Assembly (NCBI RefSeq): GCF_000759435.1
Contig: NZ_JRJG01000019.1
Coordinates: 1 to 59,188, forward strand
Reading direction: 5' to 3'
Source: Hoeflea sp. BAL378
GTDB taxonomy: Bacteria > Pseudomonadota > Alphaproteobacteria > Rhizobiales > Rhizobiaceae
DNA length: 59,188 bases
Positions 29,588-43,745 of the stretch are shown piece after piece. Each line of letters opens with the position of its first letter. The stretch's first letter is position 1. The position numbers were made by a program, and so were the translations under genes. The notes beneath the pieces are model-generated. The model was not told where the DNA came from. It saw only the letters and a list, made by a program, of their open reading frames with translations, and searched no databases.

Positions 29588-29655
29588 CAACCAAGCCGAT
29601 TTAAGGCAGAAGACAGGCCGGACGCAAGCTCCGGCGCACAGGAGGAGGCTTCCAT

Positions 29656-31491
29656 ATGCCGGACAAGGGCAAGAGCGCGACCGCGGACGACAAGCCCGAG
29701 GGCGTGACATCCCTCGCCGATGCCTATGTCGTCAAGGATCCCGAAGCCTTCGCCCGCAATGTCGCGCGCATGCTCGAGGAACTGGGCAAGGCCGCCGCAG
29801 CCTGGGTCGAGCCGCGCGAGAAAGGCGAGGTCGCCGACACCGTCTCCGAACCCATGACCGACATGGTCAAGACCTTCTCCAAGGTCGGCGAATACTGGCT
29901 CTCCGATCCCAAGCGCGCCATCGAGGCGCAGACGTCGCTGCTGACCGGCTATTTCGACATGTGGAGCGAATCGATCAAGCGCCTGTCGGGCGAGGACAGC
30001 TCACCCCGGCCGAAGACCACCGACAAGCGCTTTTCCGATCCGGACTGGGAGAACAATCCGTTCTTCGAATTCCTCAAGAACGCCTATTTCATCACCTCGG
30101 ACTGGGCCAACAAGCTGGTCGCCGAGAGCGAGGGGCTGGACGAGCACACCCGCCACAAGGCCGGCTTCTACATGCGCCAGATCACCAGCGCGCTGTCGCC
30201 CGCCAATTTTCTGGCAACCAACCCCGAGCTCTACAAGGAAATGGTCGCGTCGAACGGCGCCAACCTGGTGCGCGGCATGCACATGCTGGCCGAGGACATC
30301 GCCGCCGGCAAGGGCGAGTTGAAGCTCAGGCAGTCCGACGCTTCGATGTTCAAGGTGGGCGAGAACATCGCCGTTTCGCCAGGCAAGGTCATCGCCCAGA
30401 ACGACATCTGCCAGATCATCCAGTACGAGCCGCAGACCGAGACCGTGCTCAAGCGTCCGCTGATGATCGTCCCGCCGTGGATCAACAAATTCTACATCCT
30501 CGATCTCAACCCGAAGAAATCCTTCATCAAATGGGCGGTCGAGCAGGGCCACAGCGTGTTCGTGATCTCCTGGGTCAACCCGGACAAGCGCCACGCCACC
30601 AAGGACTGGGACGCCTATTCGCGCGAGGGCATCTCGTTCGCGCTCGACACCATCGAACAGGCGACCGGCGAGCGCGAGGTCAACGCCATCGGCTATTGCG
30701 TGGGCGGAACCCTGCTCGCCGCAACGCTGGCGCTGCACGCCCAGCAGAAGGACAGGCGCATCGCCACGGCGACGCTGTTCACCACGCAGACCGACTTCAC
30801 CCATGCGGGCGATCTCAAGGTCTTCGTCGACGAGGCGCAGATCGCGTCGATCGAGAGCGCGATGGAAAGGAACGGCTATCTCGACGGCTCGAAGATGGCG
30901 ACCGCCTTCAACATGCTGCGCGCCTCCGACCTGATCTGGCCCTATGTTGTCAACAACTACCTCAAGGGCAAGGATCCGATGCCCTTCGACCTTCTCTACT
31001 GGAATTCGGATGCGACGCGGATGCCCGCGGCCAACCATTCCTTCTATTTGCGCAACTGCTACCTCGACAACAATCTGTCGAAGGGGAAGATGAAGCTTGC
31101 GGGCAAGACGCTCAATCTCTCCAGGGTCAAGATCCCGGTCTACAACCTCGCCGCCAAGGAGGACCACATCGCCCCTGCCCGCTCCGCCTATGTCGGCGGA
31201 CGGCTGTTCGGCGGCGACGTGACCTATGTGATGGCCGGCTCCGGCCACATCGCCGGCGTCATCAACCCGCCGGACGCGGGAAAATACCAGTTCTGGTCGG
31301 ACGGCCCCAGGGACGCCGATTTCGACGACTGGGTCAAGGGCGCAAAGGAAACGCCGGGCTCCTGGTGGCCGCACTGGCACCAGTGGATCCGCTCCCACTC
31401 CGACGACGAGGTTCCGGCGCGCAAGCCCGGCGGCGACAGGCTCACGCCGATCGAGGACGCGCCGGGCTCCTATGTCCGCACCCGGGTCTGA
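29656..31491 (+). CDS. phaC: class I poly(3-hydroxyalkanoate) synthase
   Basis: PHA polymerase of 611 residues that joins (R)-3-hydroxyacyl-CoA units into storage polyester on granules. The N-terminal PhaC_N domain (about 95-270) is followed by the alpha/beta-hydrolase catalytic domain. The lipase-like box GYCVGG has the catalytic Cys348, and the other triad members are Asp503 (AAKEDHIAP) and His531 ([12 protein letters not shown]). Length is normal for class I enzymes that need no PhaE or PhaR subunit. ATG at 29656 follows an AGGAGGAGG site. No phaA, phaB or phasin gene is next to it. Confidence 0.96.
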
Positions 31492-38221: not shown

Positions 38222-39330
38222 GGCCGCGCCTCCCCTTTCTTGAAGCGTTTTTCGATCTTCGTCACCGCGAAAGCCATGACGGCCAGCGCCACGCCGCCCA
38301 AAAACAGGAAGCCGAAGCTTCCGAGCAGCGATCCCAGCGTTTCGCCGACCACGTAGAGGGTCTCGCAGGCGAAGGCGAAATAGGCAAAGCGCCGCACCAG
38401 CCGGTTCTCGCCGCCGGCGACCGCGAGCACCGCCACGCTGACGACCAGGATGAAGGCGGCGAGCGCCATCTCGACGCCGAGTCCCGGATCGACGAGCGAC
38501 ACCTGGATCAGCCCCAGACCGGACAGCAGCATGACCGCGCCATAGGCCGACACCGCTCCATGCCGGGAGATGGTCCCCGTCAACGGAGACGGCGTGAAGG
38601 ATCCGGCGCCGAACGCGACGGCGCCGAGCGCGGCCAGAACATAGCCCGGCTCCAGCTCCGTCGTTTCGAAGATGACCCACATCACCCAGGAGATGAGCAG
38701 CAGGGCGCTCAGATGCCCGGCAATCGCCGAACGCGACCGCCAGGCCGCCACGCCCACGGCGAACGCCAGCGCCAGCACCGTGGCGTAGCTGGAGAGATCC
38801 TGCGGGTTGGTCCCGGACCCGGAGAACAGGTCCTGGACGGCAAGCAGATATCCAAATCCCAGGAGCCCGGCGCCGGCCGCGGCCATCGCCGAGGCGAAGG
38901 CGAACGACACCACCAGCGCGCCCACGGCCCAGGTCAGCATGAAACCCGTTTCGTCGCCGCTCAAATGATACATCTGCGCCACGAGCGCGATGCCCGCGCC
39001 ATAGCACAGAAGCGTGAACACCAGCGCCGCCTCGGCGACCCAGGGAGCACCCCTCCGCACCGCCACCGCGGCGGCGGCAAGACCGGCCATGAGGAGTATC
39101 AGCAGCGCGATTACCCGCGTGGCCCGCGGGATCACCTCCCAGTTGGCGGCGATCAGCGCGATCACCGCGGCGCCGAACAGCACCGCCGCAAGCACCGCCA
39201 GGACCGCGGACAGGCTGAACCCGGTGTACCGCCGGTCATGATCGGCCAGGAGCACCTGGGCCTGTCCCGGGGCCAGAAGCCCGCTGCGGGTCCACTGATC
39301 GAGCTCGCGGGACAAATACCTTCGTAGCAT
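38218..39330 (-). CDS. DUF2157 membrane protein
   Basis: Integral membrane protein of 370 residues. The cytoplasmic N terminus MLRRYLSRELDQWTRSGLL is the DUF2157 start, followed by about ten to twelve hydrophobic segments from residue 40 onward. The N-terminal domain covers about 1-150; the rest resembles the DUF4401-like half that often accompanies it (weak). Role unknown, perhaps membrane stress or envelope sensing. ATG at 39330 was chosen because it begins the family sequence; the frame extends upstream without similarity. First gene of a two-gene operon. Confidence 0.85.
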   Translation of the reverse strand: MLRRYLSRELDQWTRSGLLAPGQAQVLLADHDRRYTGFSLSAVLAVLAAVLFGAAVIALIAANWEVIPRATRVIALLILLMAGLAAAAVAVRRGAPWVAEAALVFTLLCYGAGIALVAQMYHLSGDETGFMLTWAVGALVVSFAFASAMAAAGAGLLGFGYLLAVQDLFSGSGTNPQDLSSYATVLALAFAVGVAAWRSRSAIAGHLSALLLISWVMWVIFETTELEPGYVLAALGAVAFGAGSFTPSPLTGTISRHGAVSAYGAVMLLSGLGLIQVSLVDPGLGVEMALAAFILVVSVAVLAVAGGENRLVRRFAYFAFACETLYVVGETLGSLLGSFGFLFLGGVALAVMAFAVTKIEKRFKKGEARP

Positions 39331-39507
39331 CGGGCGATTCCTTCGTTCGCGGCGTCCGCACCGGAGCCTACACCAACCGCAAATCCGCACAATGAGCGTG
39401 GAAATGGCACTGTGCCTGTTTTATATGTGAGCCCTGCACAGCTTTGAGGCAAAAGCCACCGGATCACCCCTTAGCCATGCAATTTTGGAATGGCTTCCAT
39501 GAGTTTA

Positions 39508-39541
39508 TTGCACTGCACAAATCGATTGAATGCCCCTATAT
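39508..39541 (+). promoter_or_regulatory. promoter of DUF1127 gene 1 with LysR-type box
   Basis: A 34-base element TTGCACTGCACAAA-N13-CCTATAT, ending 61 bases before the ATG at 39603. The first 13 bases fit a T-N11-A LysR-type binding motif with partial dyad symmetry (TTG...CAA), and CTATAT is a likely -10. The same element with the same spacing occurs upstream of the two other DUF1127 genes. Confidence 0.65.
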
Positions 39542-39602
39542 TCAAAACATCGGAACGCCACGGTGGTGAGCCGAAAAACAGCGGGACTGAAGGAGATAGA
39601 CC

Positions 39603-39743
39603 ATGAAACTGATCCGCTCCTACGCCAGCTGGCGGAAATACCGCGAAACCTGCGTCGAGCTGAACAGGCTCTCGGAACGTGAGTTGAGCGACATCGGCAT
39701 GTCAAGGGGCGATATTCCACTCGCCGCACGGCGCGCCCTGTAA
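39603..39743 (+). CDS. DUF1127 family mini-protein 1
   Basis: Basic protein of 46 residues, MKLIRSYASWRKYRETCVEL at its start, with the DUF1127 core RLSERELSDIGMSRGDI. Members are short helical arginine-rich proteins found across alpha- and gammaproteobacteria; those in Agrobacterium and Rhodobacter affect RNA turnover, phosphate and stress responses (family knowledge). ATG at 39603 follows GGAGATAG. The gene lies behind the LysR-box promoter and directly upstream of a three-hairpin small RNA, with which it is probably co-transcribed. It is too short for most automatic ORF lists. Confidence 0.9.
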   Translation: MKLIRSYASWRKYRETCVELNRLSERELSDIGMSRGDIPLAARRAL

Positions 39744-39758
39744 GAGTTTTACGAATTC

Positions 39759-39880
39759 GGAGCGGCCTCCTCCTCCTCCCAAAGCCGCTTCGATGTGACT
39801 GACGTTCATCCTCCTCCCGAGCGTCAGTCTCCCAAAATGGCGCCCACCGGATCCTCCTCCCCCGGTGGGCGTTATTTTTT
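39759..39880 (+). ncRNA. CcsR/cuckoo-like small RNA, three hairpins with CCTCCTCC loops
   Basis: Directly 3' of DUF1127 gene 1 there are three consecutive stem-loops, each exposing a CCTCCTCC anti-Shine-Dalgarno motif. Hairpin 1 has arms 39759-39766 and 39784-39791; hairpin 2 has arms 39797-39807 and 39819-39829 (11 pairs); hairpin 3 has arms 39841-39850 and 39862-39871 (10 pairs) and ends in TTATTTTTT, so it doubles as terminator. DUF1127 gene plus CCUCCUCCC hairpins is the layout of the CcsR RNAs of Rhodobacter and the cuckoo family of alphaproteobacteria. Transcription from the promoter at 39508 and processing from the mRNA 3' part are inferred. Confidence 0.8.
39841..39880 (+). terminator. 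rho-independent terminator (third hairpin of the small RNA)
   Basis: Ten-pair stem CGCCCACCGG / CCGGTGGGCG with loop ATCCTCCTCCC followed by TTATTTTTT. It ends the DUF1127 gene 1 / small RNA transcript. Confidence 0.85.
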
Positions 39881-40041
39881 GTCCGGACGCCAGGTCCGGC
39901 CCCCTTCCCCACCCCTTCTCTTCCGAAGAATCTGTCCCTCGCCGAAACATGGCCGGCTGAGGGCTTCATTACGGCTTAACCTTTATGAACAAGGTTTTGT
40001 TAAGACGCATTGCAGAAACCGCATGGCACCTTTGCGTTATC

Positions 40042-40075
40042 TTGCACTGCACAAAACGACCTGACGCTCCTATAT
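40042..40075 (+). promoter_or_regulatory. promoter of DUF1127 gene 2 with LysR-type box
   Basis: TTGCACTGCACAAA-N13-CCTATAT, identical in the conserved parts and in spacing to the promoter at 39508. It ends 54 bases before the ATG at 40130. Confidence 0.65.
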
Positions 40076-40129
40076 CAAGGTCAACAAACACGGGGCTGAT
40101 TTGCAGCCCAAATCGAAAGGAAGAAGACC

Positions 40130-40273
40130 ATGAATATCCGCAAGGCCTACAAAGACTGGCGCGATTATCGCAACACAGTCAACGAACTGTCCCGCATGTC
40201 CGAACGCGAACTCAACGACCTCGGCATCTCCCGCGGCGACATCCCCTTCGTGGCCCGCCGTCCCGGCCACTGA
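40130..40273 (+). CDS. DUF1127 family mini-protein 2
   Basis: Basic protein of 47 residues starting MNIRKAYKDWRDYRNTVNEL with core MSERELNDLGISRGDIPFVA. It is clearly a paralogue of the 46-residue protein at 39603: same length, same RExxxxLxRxSERELxDxGxSRGDIP pattern. ATG at 40130 follows GAAAGGAAGAAG. It is followed by its own terminator and not by CCTCCTCC hairpins. Function as for the family; redundancy with genes 1 and 3 is likely. Confidence 0.9.
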   Translation: MNIRKAYKDWRDYRNTVNELSRMSERELNDLGISRGDIPFVARRPGH

Positions 40274-40315
40274 AGACTGACATTTCTGCCCGGCGCGAGC
40301 CGGTTAGATCAAACG

Positions 40316-40347
40316 GCGCCCTGGAGACAGGGCGCTGTTTCTGTTTA
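40316..40347 (+). terminator. rho-independent terminator of DUF1127 gene 2
   Basis: Eight-pair stem GCGCCCTG / CAGGGCGC with loop GAGA, followed by TGTTTCTGTTTA. It lies 43 bases after the stop codon at 40273. Confidence 0.75.
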
Positions 40348-40485
40348 TGCCCCCGCCAAACCGTTGAAACGGATCGCAGTCTGGAAGCAGGCGCAGCCGC
40401 CTCGCTGCCTGAATTTTCGGCAGGCCTGCGAATTGCCCCGCCCGTTAACCAGCCATTCCGGCCATGCATGCCTGACTTGTGATTA

Positions 40486-40519
40486 TTGCGCTGCACAAAT
40501 CGACAGCAAACGCCTATAT
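40486..40519 (+). promoter_or_regulatory. promoter of DUF1127 gene 3 with LysR-type box
   Basis: TTGCGCTGCACAAA-N13-CCTATAT, one difference in the box from the two upstream copies and the same 34-base length. It ends 66 bases before the ATG at 40586. The rest of the 312-bp gap after gene 2 holds no ORF that I can support. Confidence 0.65.
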
Positions 40520-40585
40520 GACGGGCATCAGATTGATCACAACTTATTCAGCGCCCCAGGGGGGCGCCTACACGAGGAGACCGCC

Positions 40586-40732
40586 ATGAAAATTCTCAGC
40601 AGAGCACGCAGCTGGATGAAAACCCGCCAGACCGCTCAGGAACTCGCCAACCTGTCCAACGAAACGCTCGCCGACATCGGCCTGACCCGTTTCGACATCG
40701 ACAACGTGGCTCGCGGCATTCGCACCCGCTAA
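40586..40732 (+). CDS. DUF1127 family mini-protein 3
   Basis: Basic protein of 48 residues starting MKILSRARSWMKTRQTAQEL with the more divergent core NLSNETLADIGLTRFDIDNV. It belongs to the same DUF1127 family but to a different branch than the two upstream copies, as the SERExL and SRGDIP motifs are replaced by SNETL and TRFDID. ATG at 40586 follows GAGGAGACC. Same promoter type as the other two, and a strong terminator after the stop. Confidence 0.9.
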   Translation: MKILSRARSWMKTRQTAQELANLSNETLADIGLTRFDIDNVARGIRTR

Positions 40733-40755
40733 GGGCCTTCGACATGACCGTTCGT

Positions 40756-40787
40756 AACGGCGTCCGCTTGGACGCCGTTTTCGTTTG
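40756..40787 (+). terminator. rho-independent terminator of DUF1127 gene 3
   Basis: Ten-pair stem AACGGCGTCC / GGACGCCGTT with loop GCTT, followed by TTCGTTTG. It lies 23 bases after the stop codon. Confidence 0.8.
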
Positions 40788-40845
40788 TGCGGGCTGCGGC
40801 ACAAACATCTTTGAGACCGGACCGCGTCCGTGGTAAACGGGCGCC

Positions 40846-42282
40846 ATGACCAAGCCTAGCTCTTCCCCATCCCCCATCCATGTCATCGGCGGCGGCCTGG
40901 CCGGATCCGAAGCCGCCTGGCAGATCGCCCGGCGCGGCCTGCCCGTGGTGCTGCACGAGATGCGGCCGGTGCGCGGCACCGACGCCCACAAGACCGACAG
41001 CCTGGCCGAGCTCGTCTGCTCCAATTCCTTCCGATCCGATGACGCGGAAAACAACGCCGTCGGCGTCATCCATGCCGAGATGCGGCTCGCGGACTCGCTG
41101 ATCATGGCCTGCGCCGACCGAAACCAGGTGCCCGCCGGCGGCGCGCTCGCCGTCGACCGGGAAGGCTTTGCCCAGGCCGTCACCGACGCCATCGCCGCCG
41201 AGCCGCTGATCGAGGTCGCGCGCGAGGAGATCACCGGCCTGCCGCCCGCCGACTGGGACCAGACCATCATCGCCACCGGCCCGCTCACGGCGCCGGCGCT
41301 CGCCGAGGCGATCAGCGCCGAGACCGGCCAGGATGCGCTGGCCTTCTTCGACGCCATCGCACCCATCATCCACACCGATTCGATCGACATGTCGGTCTGC
41401 TGGTTCCAGTCGCGCTACGACAAGGTCGGTCCCGGCGGCACCGGCAAGGACTACATCAACTGCCCGATGGACAAGGACCAGTACGAGGCCTTCGTCGACG
41501 CGCTGGTGGCCGGCGACACCACCGGCTTCAAGGAATGGGAAGGCACGCCCTATTTCGACGGCTGCCTGCCGATCGAGATCATGGCCGAGCGCGGACGCGA
41601 GACGCTGCGCCACGGCCCGATGAAGCCGATGGGCCTGACCAATGCCCACAAGCCCGACGTCAAGGCCTATGCGGTGGTGCAGTTGCGCCAAGACAATGCG
41701 CTGGGCACGCTGTACAACATGGTCGGATTCCAGACCAAGCTGAAATACGGCGCCCAGGCCGAGATCTTCCGGCTGATTCCAGGCCTCGAGAACGCCGAAT
41801 TCGCCCGGCTCGGCGGCCTGCACCGCAACACCTATCTCAATTCGCCGCTGCTGCTCGACGGAACGCTGCAGCTCAAGTCCCGCCCGGGGCTGAGATTCGC
41901 CGGACAGATCACCGGCTGCGAAGGCTATGTCGAAAGCGCGGCGATGGGCCTGCTCGCCGGACGCTTCGCCGCCGCCGAGCGCCTGGGCGAGGATCTCGCG
42001 CCGCCGCCGCAAACATCGGCCTTCGGCGCGCTGCTCAACCACATCACCGGCGGCCACATCCTCAGCGACGACGAGCCCGGCAAGCGTTCGTTCCAGCCGA
42101 TGAACGTGAATTTCGGCCTGTTTCCGCCGCTCGACCCCGGCGCGATCCTCCGCCCCGAGGGCGGTGGCCGGTTCCGCGGCAAGGACAAGGCCAAGGCCAA
42201 GAAACAGGCGATGGCCCGCCGCGCGCTCCAGGACTTCGCCGCATGGCTTGAAGGCACGAGCGTCCGGCAGGCCGCCGAGTAA
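40846..42282 (+). CDS. trmFO: FADH2/methylene-THF-dependent tRNA m5U54 methyltransferase
   Basis: Flavoprotein of 478 residues that methylates U54 in the T loop of tRNAs with methylene-tetrahydrofolate as carbon donor. The FAD motif is [14 protein letters not shown] (about 13-26), followed by [17 protein letters not shown] and the characteristic [19 protein letters not shown]. Catalytic cysteines of the family lie in LVCSNSF and further in the [14 protein letters not shown] segment (about 365-378). ATG at 40846. It is convergent with the sterol desaturase-like gene, 34 bases apart. Confidence 0.95.
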
Positions 42283-42322: not shown

Positions 42323-43294
42323 CGCCGCAGCCACCGGTGCGTGGCCTGGCACGGGCGTTCCCGCGCCCGGCAGGCCGGGCATTCCGGCCGATTCTGGATG
42401 TTTGGCGACGTAATCTGCCTTAAGCTCCTCCGATCCCTTGCGCGACCCGTCATGGCTCCAGCCCGGCGGGGCGAACAGATAGGCGAGCCGCTCGGTGATG
42501 GTCAGGCCCGGCTGAAACGCATCGCGGAACATGTCGGTCCACTCGTGAAACGCCACCTTGACCGGATTGAAGCTGCCGATGTTCTTGACGATGCCGTAGC
42601 GCGGCATGTCCTCGTCGAGCTCGGGCACGAAGCTGCCGAACATCCTGTCCCAGATGATCAGCGTGCCGGCATAGTTGGAATCGAGATAGCGCGGGTTGGT
42701 AGCGTGGTGCACCCGGTGGTGCGAAGGCGTGTTGAAGATCCATTCGATCGGCTTCCACATCCGGCCGATCGCCTCGGTGTGAATCCAGAACTGGTAGACC
42801 AGGTTGAGCCCGCCGACGAACAGCAGCAGAACCGGATGGAAGCCGATCAGCGCCAGCGGAATGCGCAGGATGAACATGCCGGTGAAGGTGCCGGTCCAGC
42901 TCTGTCTCAGCGCGGTCGACAGGTTGTAGTGCTGCGAGGAATGGTGGTTGACGTGCTCGGCCCACACCCAGCGGCAGCGGTGGGCGATGCGGTGGTACCA
43001 GTAATAGCGCAGATCATCGAGGATGAAGCAGAGCGCGATGGCCCACCAGGACGTGCCGAAATCATAGATCCGGAACTGCCAGGCCCACATCAGCACGCCG
43101 AACGCCACGAAGCCCAGAAGCAGGCCGGACACCACATTGCCCACGCCCATCATCAGCGAGGTCGCGGTATCGCGCGTCTCGTAGTCGCCACGGCCCTTGA
43201 AGTAGCGGATGACGAACAGCTCGAGCAGGATCGCGATCACGAAGAACGGGATCGCCATCTGCGTCACATCCGGAAAATCCTTGAGATCAGGCAT
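42317..43294 (-). CDS. sterol desaturase/fatty acid hydroxylase family membrane protein
   Basis: Integral membrane di-iron enzyme of 325 residues. Four or more hydrophobic segments are visible (about 12-30, 48-72, 82-94, 135-168). The histidine boxes are complete: HRIAH (101-105), HVNHH (114-118), an isolated His in WIHTE (about 171) and HHRVHH (192-197). It would hydroxylate or desaturate a lipid; the substrate is unknown. ATG at 43294 has a GGAGGAGGGG site just upstream. It overlaps by 8 bases the stop of the small membrane protein gene upstream, so they form an operon. Confidence 0.9.
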   Translation of the reverse strand: MPDLKDFPDVTQMAIPFFVIAILLELFVIRYFKGRGDYETRDTATSLMMGVGNVVSGLLLGFVAFGVLMWAWQFRIYDFGTSWWAIALCFILDDLRYYWYHRIAHRCRWVWAEHVNHHSSQHYNLSTALRQSWTGTFTGMFILRIPLALIGFHPVLLLFVGGLNLVYQFWIHTEAIGRMWKPIEWIFNTPSHHRVHHATNPRYLDSNYAGTLIIWDRMFGSFVPELDEDMPRYGIVKNIGSFNPVKVAFHEWTDMFRDAFQPGLTITERLAYLFAPPGWSHDGSRKGSEELKADYVAKHPESAGMPGLPGAGTPVPGHAPVAAAE

Positions 43295-43745
43295 GGTCCC
43301 CTCCTCCGGCCCCGCCGAATTGCGGGCTCGCCAGCACGAAGCTGCCGCACAGCCACAGCGACACTTCGGCGGCCTCCTCGCTGTTCTGGAACACGTATTC
43401 TCCGCCCTTGAGGGTGGAATCATGGAATTTGATCTTCAGTCCCGGCTGGCCCTCGAGCGGCGTCACCGAGGCCGTGCCCGGCAGGATCAGCCGCGCCACG
43501 TAGTGGCGCCCCATGGTCTGCAGAAAACCGACCTTGCCGTCCGCCAGCCTGAGGAAGCAGGCCTTTGCATCACGGGTCATCGTCACCGAGCGGATCGCCT
43601 CGTCGGGAAAGGCGCGGGCGAACTCCACGATGGCTTCGCCCGGGTCGCGCGTATCCGTCTGACGTGATCCGCCGGTGAAATGCACGGCCGCAATCACCAT
43701 CAGCACGCCGAAGGCGACCACCACAACCAAAACACCAAGACTCAT
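43287..43745 (-). CDS. membrane-anchored protein, unknown function
   Basis: Protein of 152 residues with an N-terminal membrane anchor (MSLGVLVVVVAFGVLMVIAA) and a soluble, probably periplasmic domain (about 25-150). No known domain recognised. ATG at 43745 is preceded by GGAGGGAG. Its last 8 bases overlap the sterol desaturase-like gene, so it may be a partner of that enzyme (inference). Confidence 0.65.
   Translation of the reverse strand: MSLGVLVVVVAFGVLMVIAAVHFTGGSRQTDTRDPGEAIVEFARAFPDEAIRSVTMTRDAKACFLRLADGKVGFLQTMGRHYVARLILPGTASVTPLEGQPGLKIKFHDSTLKGGEYVFQNSEEAAEVSLWLCGSFVLASPQFGGAGGGDHA

Follow-up and report, generated by a model that had tools for sequence, protein, structure and literature searches.

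The window, which is the full 59,188-nt stretch of contig NZ_JRJG01000019.1 from Hoeflea sp. BAL378 and to which all coordinates refer, hosts at 39752-39877 a member of the ar14 (alpha-r14, NfeR1 or "cuckoo") family of small RNAs (sRNAs). This copy of a family known from rhizobia and related bacteria is unannotated, and protein-only annotation would miss such an RNA, as the original prediction remarked. We consider it highly probable that this ar14 RNA derives from a DUF1127 message, probably under LsrB-type control, is released by cleavage and acts in trans, blocking translation through loops with an anti-Shine-Dalgarno (aSD) sequence. Family membership, structure, covariation, gene order, the promoter common to the DUF1127 genes and the presence of an LsrB orthologue in the genome are all directly observed.

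An Infernal search with the Rfam models, suggested as a check in the original prediction, returned a strong match to ar14 (RF02344) on the plus strand at 39752-39877. The match scores 104.9 bits, compared with a gathering score of 58.8, covers model positions 1-123 of 123 and is, besides four tRNAs, the sole Rfam match at the gathering threshold in the window. Our own covariance model, R1, assigns 125.1 bits to the same RNA, the window being one of its 39 training rows. All sequence-level features of ar14 that we examined were found in the window RNA. Its parts are the following:

39752..39877, plus strand: ar14 (alpha-r14) small RNA with three hairpins, from RF02344, our covariance model R1 and covariation
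39767..39783, plus strand: extended anti-SD loop a, CTCCTCCTCCTCCCAAA, from fold and alignment
39808..39818, plus strand: anti-SD loop b, ATCCTCCTCCC, from fold and alignment
39851..39861, plus strand: anti-SD loop c, ATCCTCCTCCC, from fold and alignment
39834..39881, plus strand: hairpin 3 and T-run, probable intrinsic terminator of the DUF1127 gene and the sRNA, from fold and sequence

Three consecutive stem-loops are present in the minimum-energy fold where they had been proposed. They form 10 pairs (39757-39766/39784-39793), 11 pairs (39797-39807/39819-39829) and 17 pairs (39834-39850/39862-39878; 16 in the centroid), compared with 8, 11 and 10 pairs in the earlier count. The fold energy is -63.7 kcal/mol, compared with a mean of -40.1 for shuffled sequences (z -6.1), and none of 200 shuffles is as good. 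All three hairpin loops contain CCUCCUCC. They also share CCTCCTCC, in agreement with the motif first noticed; it is present in every loop, with three overlapping copies in loop 1, and in two further copies elsewhere in the window when both strands are considered. The T-run that had been seen at the end of the last hairpin lies at 39875-39880. The pattern scan for terminators, which permits loops of 3-8 only, did not list hairpin 3.

To follow the evolution of the three hairpins, we aligned 39 members of the family: the window RNA, three from two genomes of the same genus, 30 top-scoring loci and five other matches from the same GTDB family. In this alignment, which is biased to high scorers, 22 of the 26 consensus pairs show two-sided compensatory changes, and on each of the five measures used, all 500 shuffles fall short of the alignment. 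Overall, 97.9% of the cells are paired, with far lower values in both controls. Conservation ranges from 82 to 100% in the CTCCTCCTCCC columns of the loops, and identity averages 77% in stems and 56% in linkers. Column conservation and covariation therefore indicate that the loop motif stays and the stems vary with compensation. This bears out the original idea of conserved loops on variable stems, for which a lack of covariation would have been fatal.

The conserved loops also bear on whether the hairpins act in cis only, ending and stabilizing the DUF1127 mRNA, with C-rich loops that have no target in trans. The third hairpin, as a terminator-like stem followed by a T-run, would suit such a role. 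However, a cis-only role does not account for loop columns that are kept while stems change by compensation. Moreover, the RNA occurs without the ORF, since, of the 49 named loci that have classed matches, 21 contain at least one copy lacking DUF1127 ahead, and the family member NfeR1 is a trans-acting RNA according to the published passages on it. Altogether, an exclusively cis-acting function seems very improbable.

The original prediction placed the hairpins behind a DUF1127 gene, and the gene at 39603-39743 is indeed a clear PF06568 member. It is the first of three, and the ar14 match begins 9 nt past its stop codon. The order is DUF1127 gene 1, ar14, DUF1127 genes 2 and 3, and then trmFO:

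39488..39503, plus strand: possible degenerate LsrB/VtlR site GAATGGCTTCCATGAG, from visual comparison with the exact ar15 sites
39508..39541, plus strand: promoter of the DUF1127-ar14 unit, TTGCACTGCACAA, from a pattern match and a sigma-70-type scan
39603..39743, plus strand: DUF1127 gene 1, 46 aa, PF06568 at 53.6 bits (cut-off 23.3), with the SD AAGGAGA at 39590-39596
40130..40273, plus strand: DUF1127 gene 2, 47 aa, PF06568 at 63.6 bits, with its own promoter copy at 40042-40075
40586..40732, plus strand: DUF1127 gene 3, 48 aa, PF06568 at 45.7 bits, with its own promoter copy at 40486-40519

The promoter at 39508-39541 contains CTGCAC (-35-like), N17 and CTATAT (-10-like). The pattern CTGCACAA-N14-16-CTATAT has three matches in the window and none in 100 shuffles, and in the form CTGCACAA-N15-CTATAT it is the promoter common to all three DUF1127 genes. 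Of the four copies of the extended element TTGCNCTGCACAA in the 5.48-Mb genome, three stand ahead of the DUF1127 genes of the window. We rejected the fourth copy as a promoter, as it sits inside an ORF of 438 aa (weakly ZIP-like, under the Pfam cut-off). By scanning with the sigma-70 consensus, we found that 39508-39541 is the only promoter-like site on the plus strand of 39300-40900, and that no sigma-70-type promoter lies between 39543 and 39752. The likely source of the ar14 RNA is the promoter upstream of DUF1127 gene 1, whose core spans 39513-39541. The simplest reading of the sequence is that gene and sRNA share one message of approximately 330 nt, the RNA probably being made as the tail of a message for a tiny protein.

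The same layout, with a DUF1127 gene, hairpin RNAs and a terminator at the end, is described for the CIN1 locus (CcaF1-CcsR1-4) of Rhodobacter sphaeroides in passages of PMC10253847, and the original prediction had drawn this parallel. The locus could accordingly be a CcsR-type unit as in Rhodobacter, driven by RpoH, processed by RNase E with the aid of the DUF1127 protein, and directed at C1 and stress genes. However, the same passages give CcsR an RpoHI/RpoHII promoter and four RNAs, whereas the window has one three-hairpin ar14 and a promoter common to three genes that is sigma-70-like (in a comparison with the sigma-70 consensus only); in addition, the Rfam match is ar14. We hence regard a CcsR-type unit as unlikely. 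Of the CcsR/cuckoo identity originally proposed, the cuckoo part stands and CcsR is a looser parallel.

The likely regulator of the unit is LsrB. In passages of PMC10746234, LsrB activates nfeR1 via a TGCA-N6-GCAT site. The LsrB orthologue VtlR is an activator of AbcR sRNAs and of small proteins in Agrobacterium and Brucella, among them DUF1127 proteins in Brucella, as reported in parts of PMC12595884 and PMC7486931; the regulon also includes VrsA, of approximately 300 nt (PMC7486931). The passages on the VtlR regulon do not mention joint expression of an ar14 RNA and a DUF1127 gene. An LsrB orthologue is present in the genome of Hoeflea sp. BAL378: a LysR gene next to trxB, whose match to A. 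tumefaciens LsrB (PDB 9HH1) has an E-value of 5.7e-157. On its contig (C167; locus L127), trxB, lsrB and two ar15/AbcR sRNAs lie in a row, and the two sRNAs 3' of lsrB (97.3 and 93.3 bits) have exact LsrB-type sites, GCAT-N3-TG-N3-T. AbcR/alpha-r15 (RF02345) resembles the window RNA in its aSD loops and LsrB control, both in print, but is a separate Rfam family, with two aSD motifs and Hfq-binding described in print.

GCAT-N3-TG-N3-T is exact before DUF1127 gene 3 as well as before both ar15 copies (4 to 5 of 1,000 shuffles are as good). Before DUF1127 genes 1 and 2 it has one mismatch, which is not significant, as 83 and 107 of 1,000 shuffles, respectively, do as well; for gene 1, no site in the 45 nt upstream of the promoter scores better. 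The Brucella VtlR motif CAATGCAGCCATGCA was rejected as support, with three window matches at up to three mismatches when 2.4 are expected by chance. The region upstream of DUF1127 gene 1 (39440-39560) also comprises the element TTGCACTGCAC. Judging from the orthologue, the sites and the published regulons together, LsrB/VtlR control of the DUF1127-ar14 unit is likely.

In the mechanism that we propose, a promoter located ahead of the 46-codon DUF1127 gene and probably under LsrB/VtlR control would drive transcription of a single message of approximately 330 nt that would terminate at the third hairpin. Cleavage near 39750 would then release a three-hairpin RNA of approximately 125 nt. Its three exposed loops, which resemble the anti-SD sequence of the ribosome, would pair redundantly with the ribosome-binding sites of mRNAs in trans, from transporter and metabolic genes, and block their translation. 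We infer transcription, processing and repression for the window RNA from the papers on NfeR1 and CcsR.

NfeR1 of S. meliloti (RF02344) is the closest model. It has three hairpins with variable stems and the motif CCUCCUCCC unpaired in each, exactly as the motif is unpaired in each of the three window hairpins, and it is under LsrB-type control, which is likely in the window unit too. In the passages of PMC10746234, its three redundant aSD motifs silence translation; they are reported to pair with translation-start regions, and its main predicted targets are transporter mRNAs. Since the window RNA has the same loops, it in all likelihood works like NfeR1: the most probable action is in trans, with its anti-SD loops base-pairing to ribosome-binding sites. 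The titration of ribosome-binding sites that was originally suggested agrees with these data on NfeR1. The other suggestion, titration of a CsrA-like or Hfq-type protein, was rejected after evidence was sought and none found, and passages of PMC8844928 contrast NfeR1 with the Hfq-binding AbcR sRNAs. The window RNA and NfeR1 also differ. Loop a is longer in the window RNA, and NfeR1 is described with its own promoter, whereas in the window a DUF1127 ORF lies between promoter and RNA and a scan with the sigma-70 consensus found no promoter directly before the RNA.

To identify candidate targets, we looked for SDs that the loops could pair with. The pattern GGAGGAGG-N3-9-ATG has 40 matches in the genome, compared with six for the reversed pattern; since G-rich SDs commonly precede genes, this difference is no proof of targets. 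ORFs were read at 30 of the 40 sites, and 15 are 110 codons or longer. A Pfam scan of nine of these 15 ORFs, a selection made by eye, identified two periplasmic binding proteins. Within the window, perfect GGAGGAGG SDs precede phaC (29641-29658, plus strand) and a fatty-acid hydroxylase gene (43292-43307, minus strand), both candidate targets. The start region of the hydroxylase gene (start 43291, minus strand) forms the strongest predicted duplex of the seven tried (-29.2 kcal/mol), followed by DUF1127 gene 3 (-23.8 kcal/mol) and phaC (start 29656; -23.6 kcal/mol). The median is -11.5 kcal/mol for the first ATGs of 64 window ORFs of at least 250 codons, many of which are not genes.

These energies also bear on autoregulation, in which the loops would pair with the SDs of the three linked DUF1127 genes as main targets. 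The duplexes of gene 1 (-15.5 kcal/mol) and gene 3 exceed the median of the 64 ORF starts, which are mostly unproven. Gene 2, however, reaches only -10.0 kcal/mol, weaker than that median, and the fatty-acid hydroxylase gene is stronger than gene 3, with phaC about equal to it. Autoregulation as the main role is therefore unlikely, and it would in any case add to trans action rather than replace it. In the published passages, NfeR1 silences ntrB through an 8-nt aSD interaction. The likely ntrB of this genome (beside ntrC; below the cut-off of the NR(II) model) gives a weak -11.9 kcal/mol at its first possible start, the start codon being uncertain. Because this pairing is weak, the regulon may differ from that of NfeR1.

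We measured the distribution of ar14 with two draws of genomes, both under stricter filters that lose weak matches. Within the GTDB family of the window, 194 of 199 sampled genomes have a match (E <= 0.001), 184 of them over the cut-off. In the class-wide draw, seven of 142 genomes match, including that of the window, which is the only one to pass the cut-off. Both draws bear out the occurrence of ar14 in Rhizobiaceae and close families. The genome of Hoeflea sp. BAL378 itself has two ar14 matches, the window RNA and a 38.1-bit match below the cut-off on another contig (C80:39533-39678, plus strand; L002:1468-1646). This second RNA has two CCTCCTCCC loops and no other credible Rfam match. It adjoins a LysR gene other than the trxB-linked one, has TTGCAATGCAGCATGA directly upstream and has counterparts in genomes of the same genus (L123 and L126). 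It is possibly an undescribed aSD RNA of the genus.

We then compared gene order by searching the window and 80 named trmFO loci with the model built from the 39 members. Of the 94 matches, 83 were classed, after dropping that of the window, a partial one (L083) and nine weak rows (E > 1e-6, two on the minus strand); 31 of the 80 loci have no classed match. DUF1127 genes at these loci were found with a profile built on ORFs of at least 35 codons. Thirty-four copies in 29 loci are DUF1127-coupled, starting 0-44 nt after a DUF1127 stop; 21 copies in 12 loci are tandem, within 160 nt behind another ar14; and 28 copies in 21 loci are free, with neither ahead, although copies at least 160 nt behind another ar14 were counted as free and some may belong to the transcript of the first copy. 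Coupled copies occur in Phyllobacterium, Mesorhizobium, Aminobacter, Brucella rhizosphaerae, B. endophytica, Oricola, Aurantimonas, Aureimonas and Roseibium, and free copies in Rhizobium, Sinorhizobium, Ensifer, Shinella and kin. Six tandem ar14-like RNAs (42-50 bits with our model) lie behind one DUF1127 gene in Aurantimonas (L066:3085-3890), an array that recalls CcsR1-4, and another locus has four (L079). Pararhizobium haloflavum has both a free and a coupled ar14 at its trmFO locus (L065:2935-3556), and in another genome an ar35 sRNA (54.9 bits; L007:2362-2505) lies approximately 0.75 kb from a solo ar14.

On a quick, single-gene, unrooted TrmFO tree, where L038 (no match) and L065 (both layouts) were left unlabelled, the layout labels need two changes over 49 labelled rows, compared with a mean of 15.7 when shuffled (none of 500 shuffles as low). 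Nineteen of the 20 free rows form one clade (SH-aLRT 91, no star), and the remaining row is a Bauldia MAG without DUF1127 at the locus. The window and Oricola are coupled and fall outside the free clade, within a starred set (97) together with it. Because the rows beyond this set also have the coupled layout, it is more parsimonious to assume that coupling was lost. The tree thus suggests that DUF1127 coupling may be the older state and the free arrangement of Rhizobium and Sinorhizobium derived, and that the ORF separating promoter from sRNA may have disappeared to give the solo NfeR1-type genes.

A DUF1127 remnant that lacks a start codon is found in one of 37 leaders. Between promoter and ar14, L015 (1240-1500, turned) has a DUF1127-like piece (24.1 bits, E 9.3e-07) in one open frame with no ATG, GTG or TTG start before the last codon, whereas L008, of the same genus, has an intact 46-aa DUF1127 ORF, with promoter and ar14 that align closely with those of L015. 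None of 740 shuffled leaders gave a match, and all four coupled controls did. The other 36 leaders have no DUF1127 trace, as expected after a clean loss or if the ORF never existed. When compared among the named loci, promoter elements differ between layouts: TTGC-N2-TGCA is found in 13 of 20 free and seven of 28 coupled loci (random-window rate 0.03), T[TC]GCACTGCA in 12 of 20 and 0 of 28 (rate 0.00), and TGCA-N6-GCA in 10 of 20 and 17 of 28 (rates 0.06 and 0.04). This difference in promoter type between clades weakens the claim that one promoter was simply kept. We give even chances to the view that the free NfeR1-type genes of Rhizobium and Sinorhizobium descend from an LsrB-driven message for DUF1127 that carried the sRNA in its 3' UTR and lost the ORF but kept promoter and sRNA. 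The window would then be the old coupled form with the promoter element of the clade, and L015 the same loss half done.

Taken as a single copy, the window RNA adds little, since NfeR1 has already revealed what it is and what it probably does. In our literature search, which excluded the original cuckoo paper, where the coupling may be discussed, no paper treats NfeR1 and DUF1127 together. The locus joins, in apparently one transcript, two published stories, that of LsrB/VtlR and aSD sRNAs and that of VtlR and DUF1127 proteins. Its value lies in comparison, through which the origin of NfeR1 becomes testable and, with it, the question of how an sRNA can lose the protein gene that accompanies it. 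If this origin is true, loss of the ORF would be a further way for sRNAs from 3' UTRs to become independent, beside the gain of an internal promoter.
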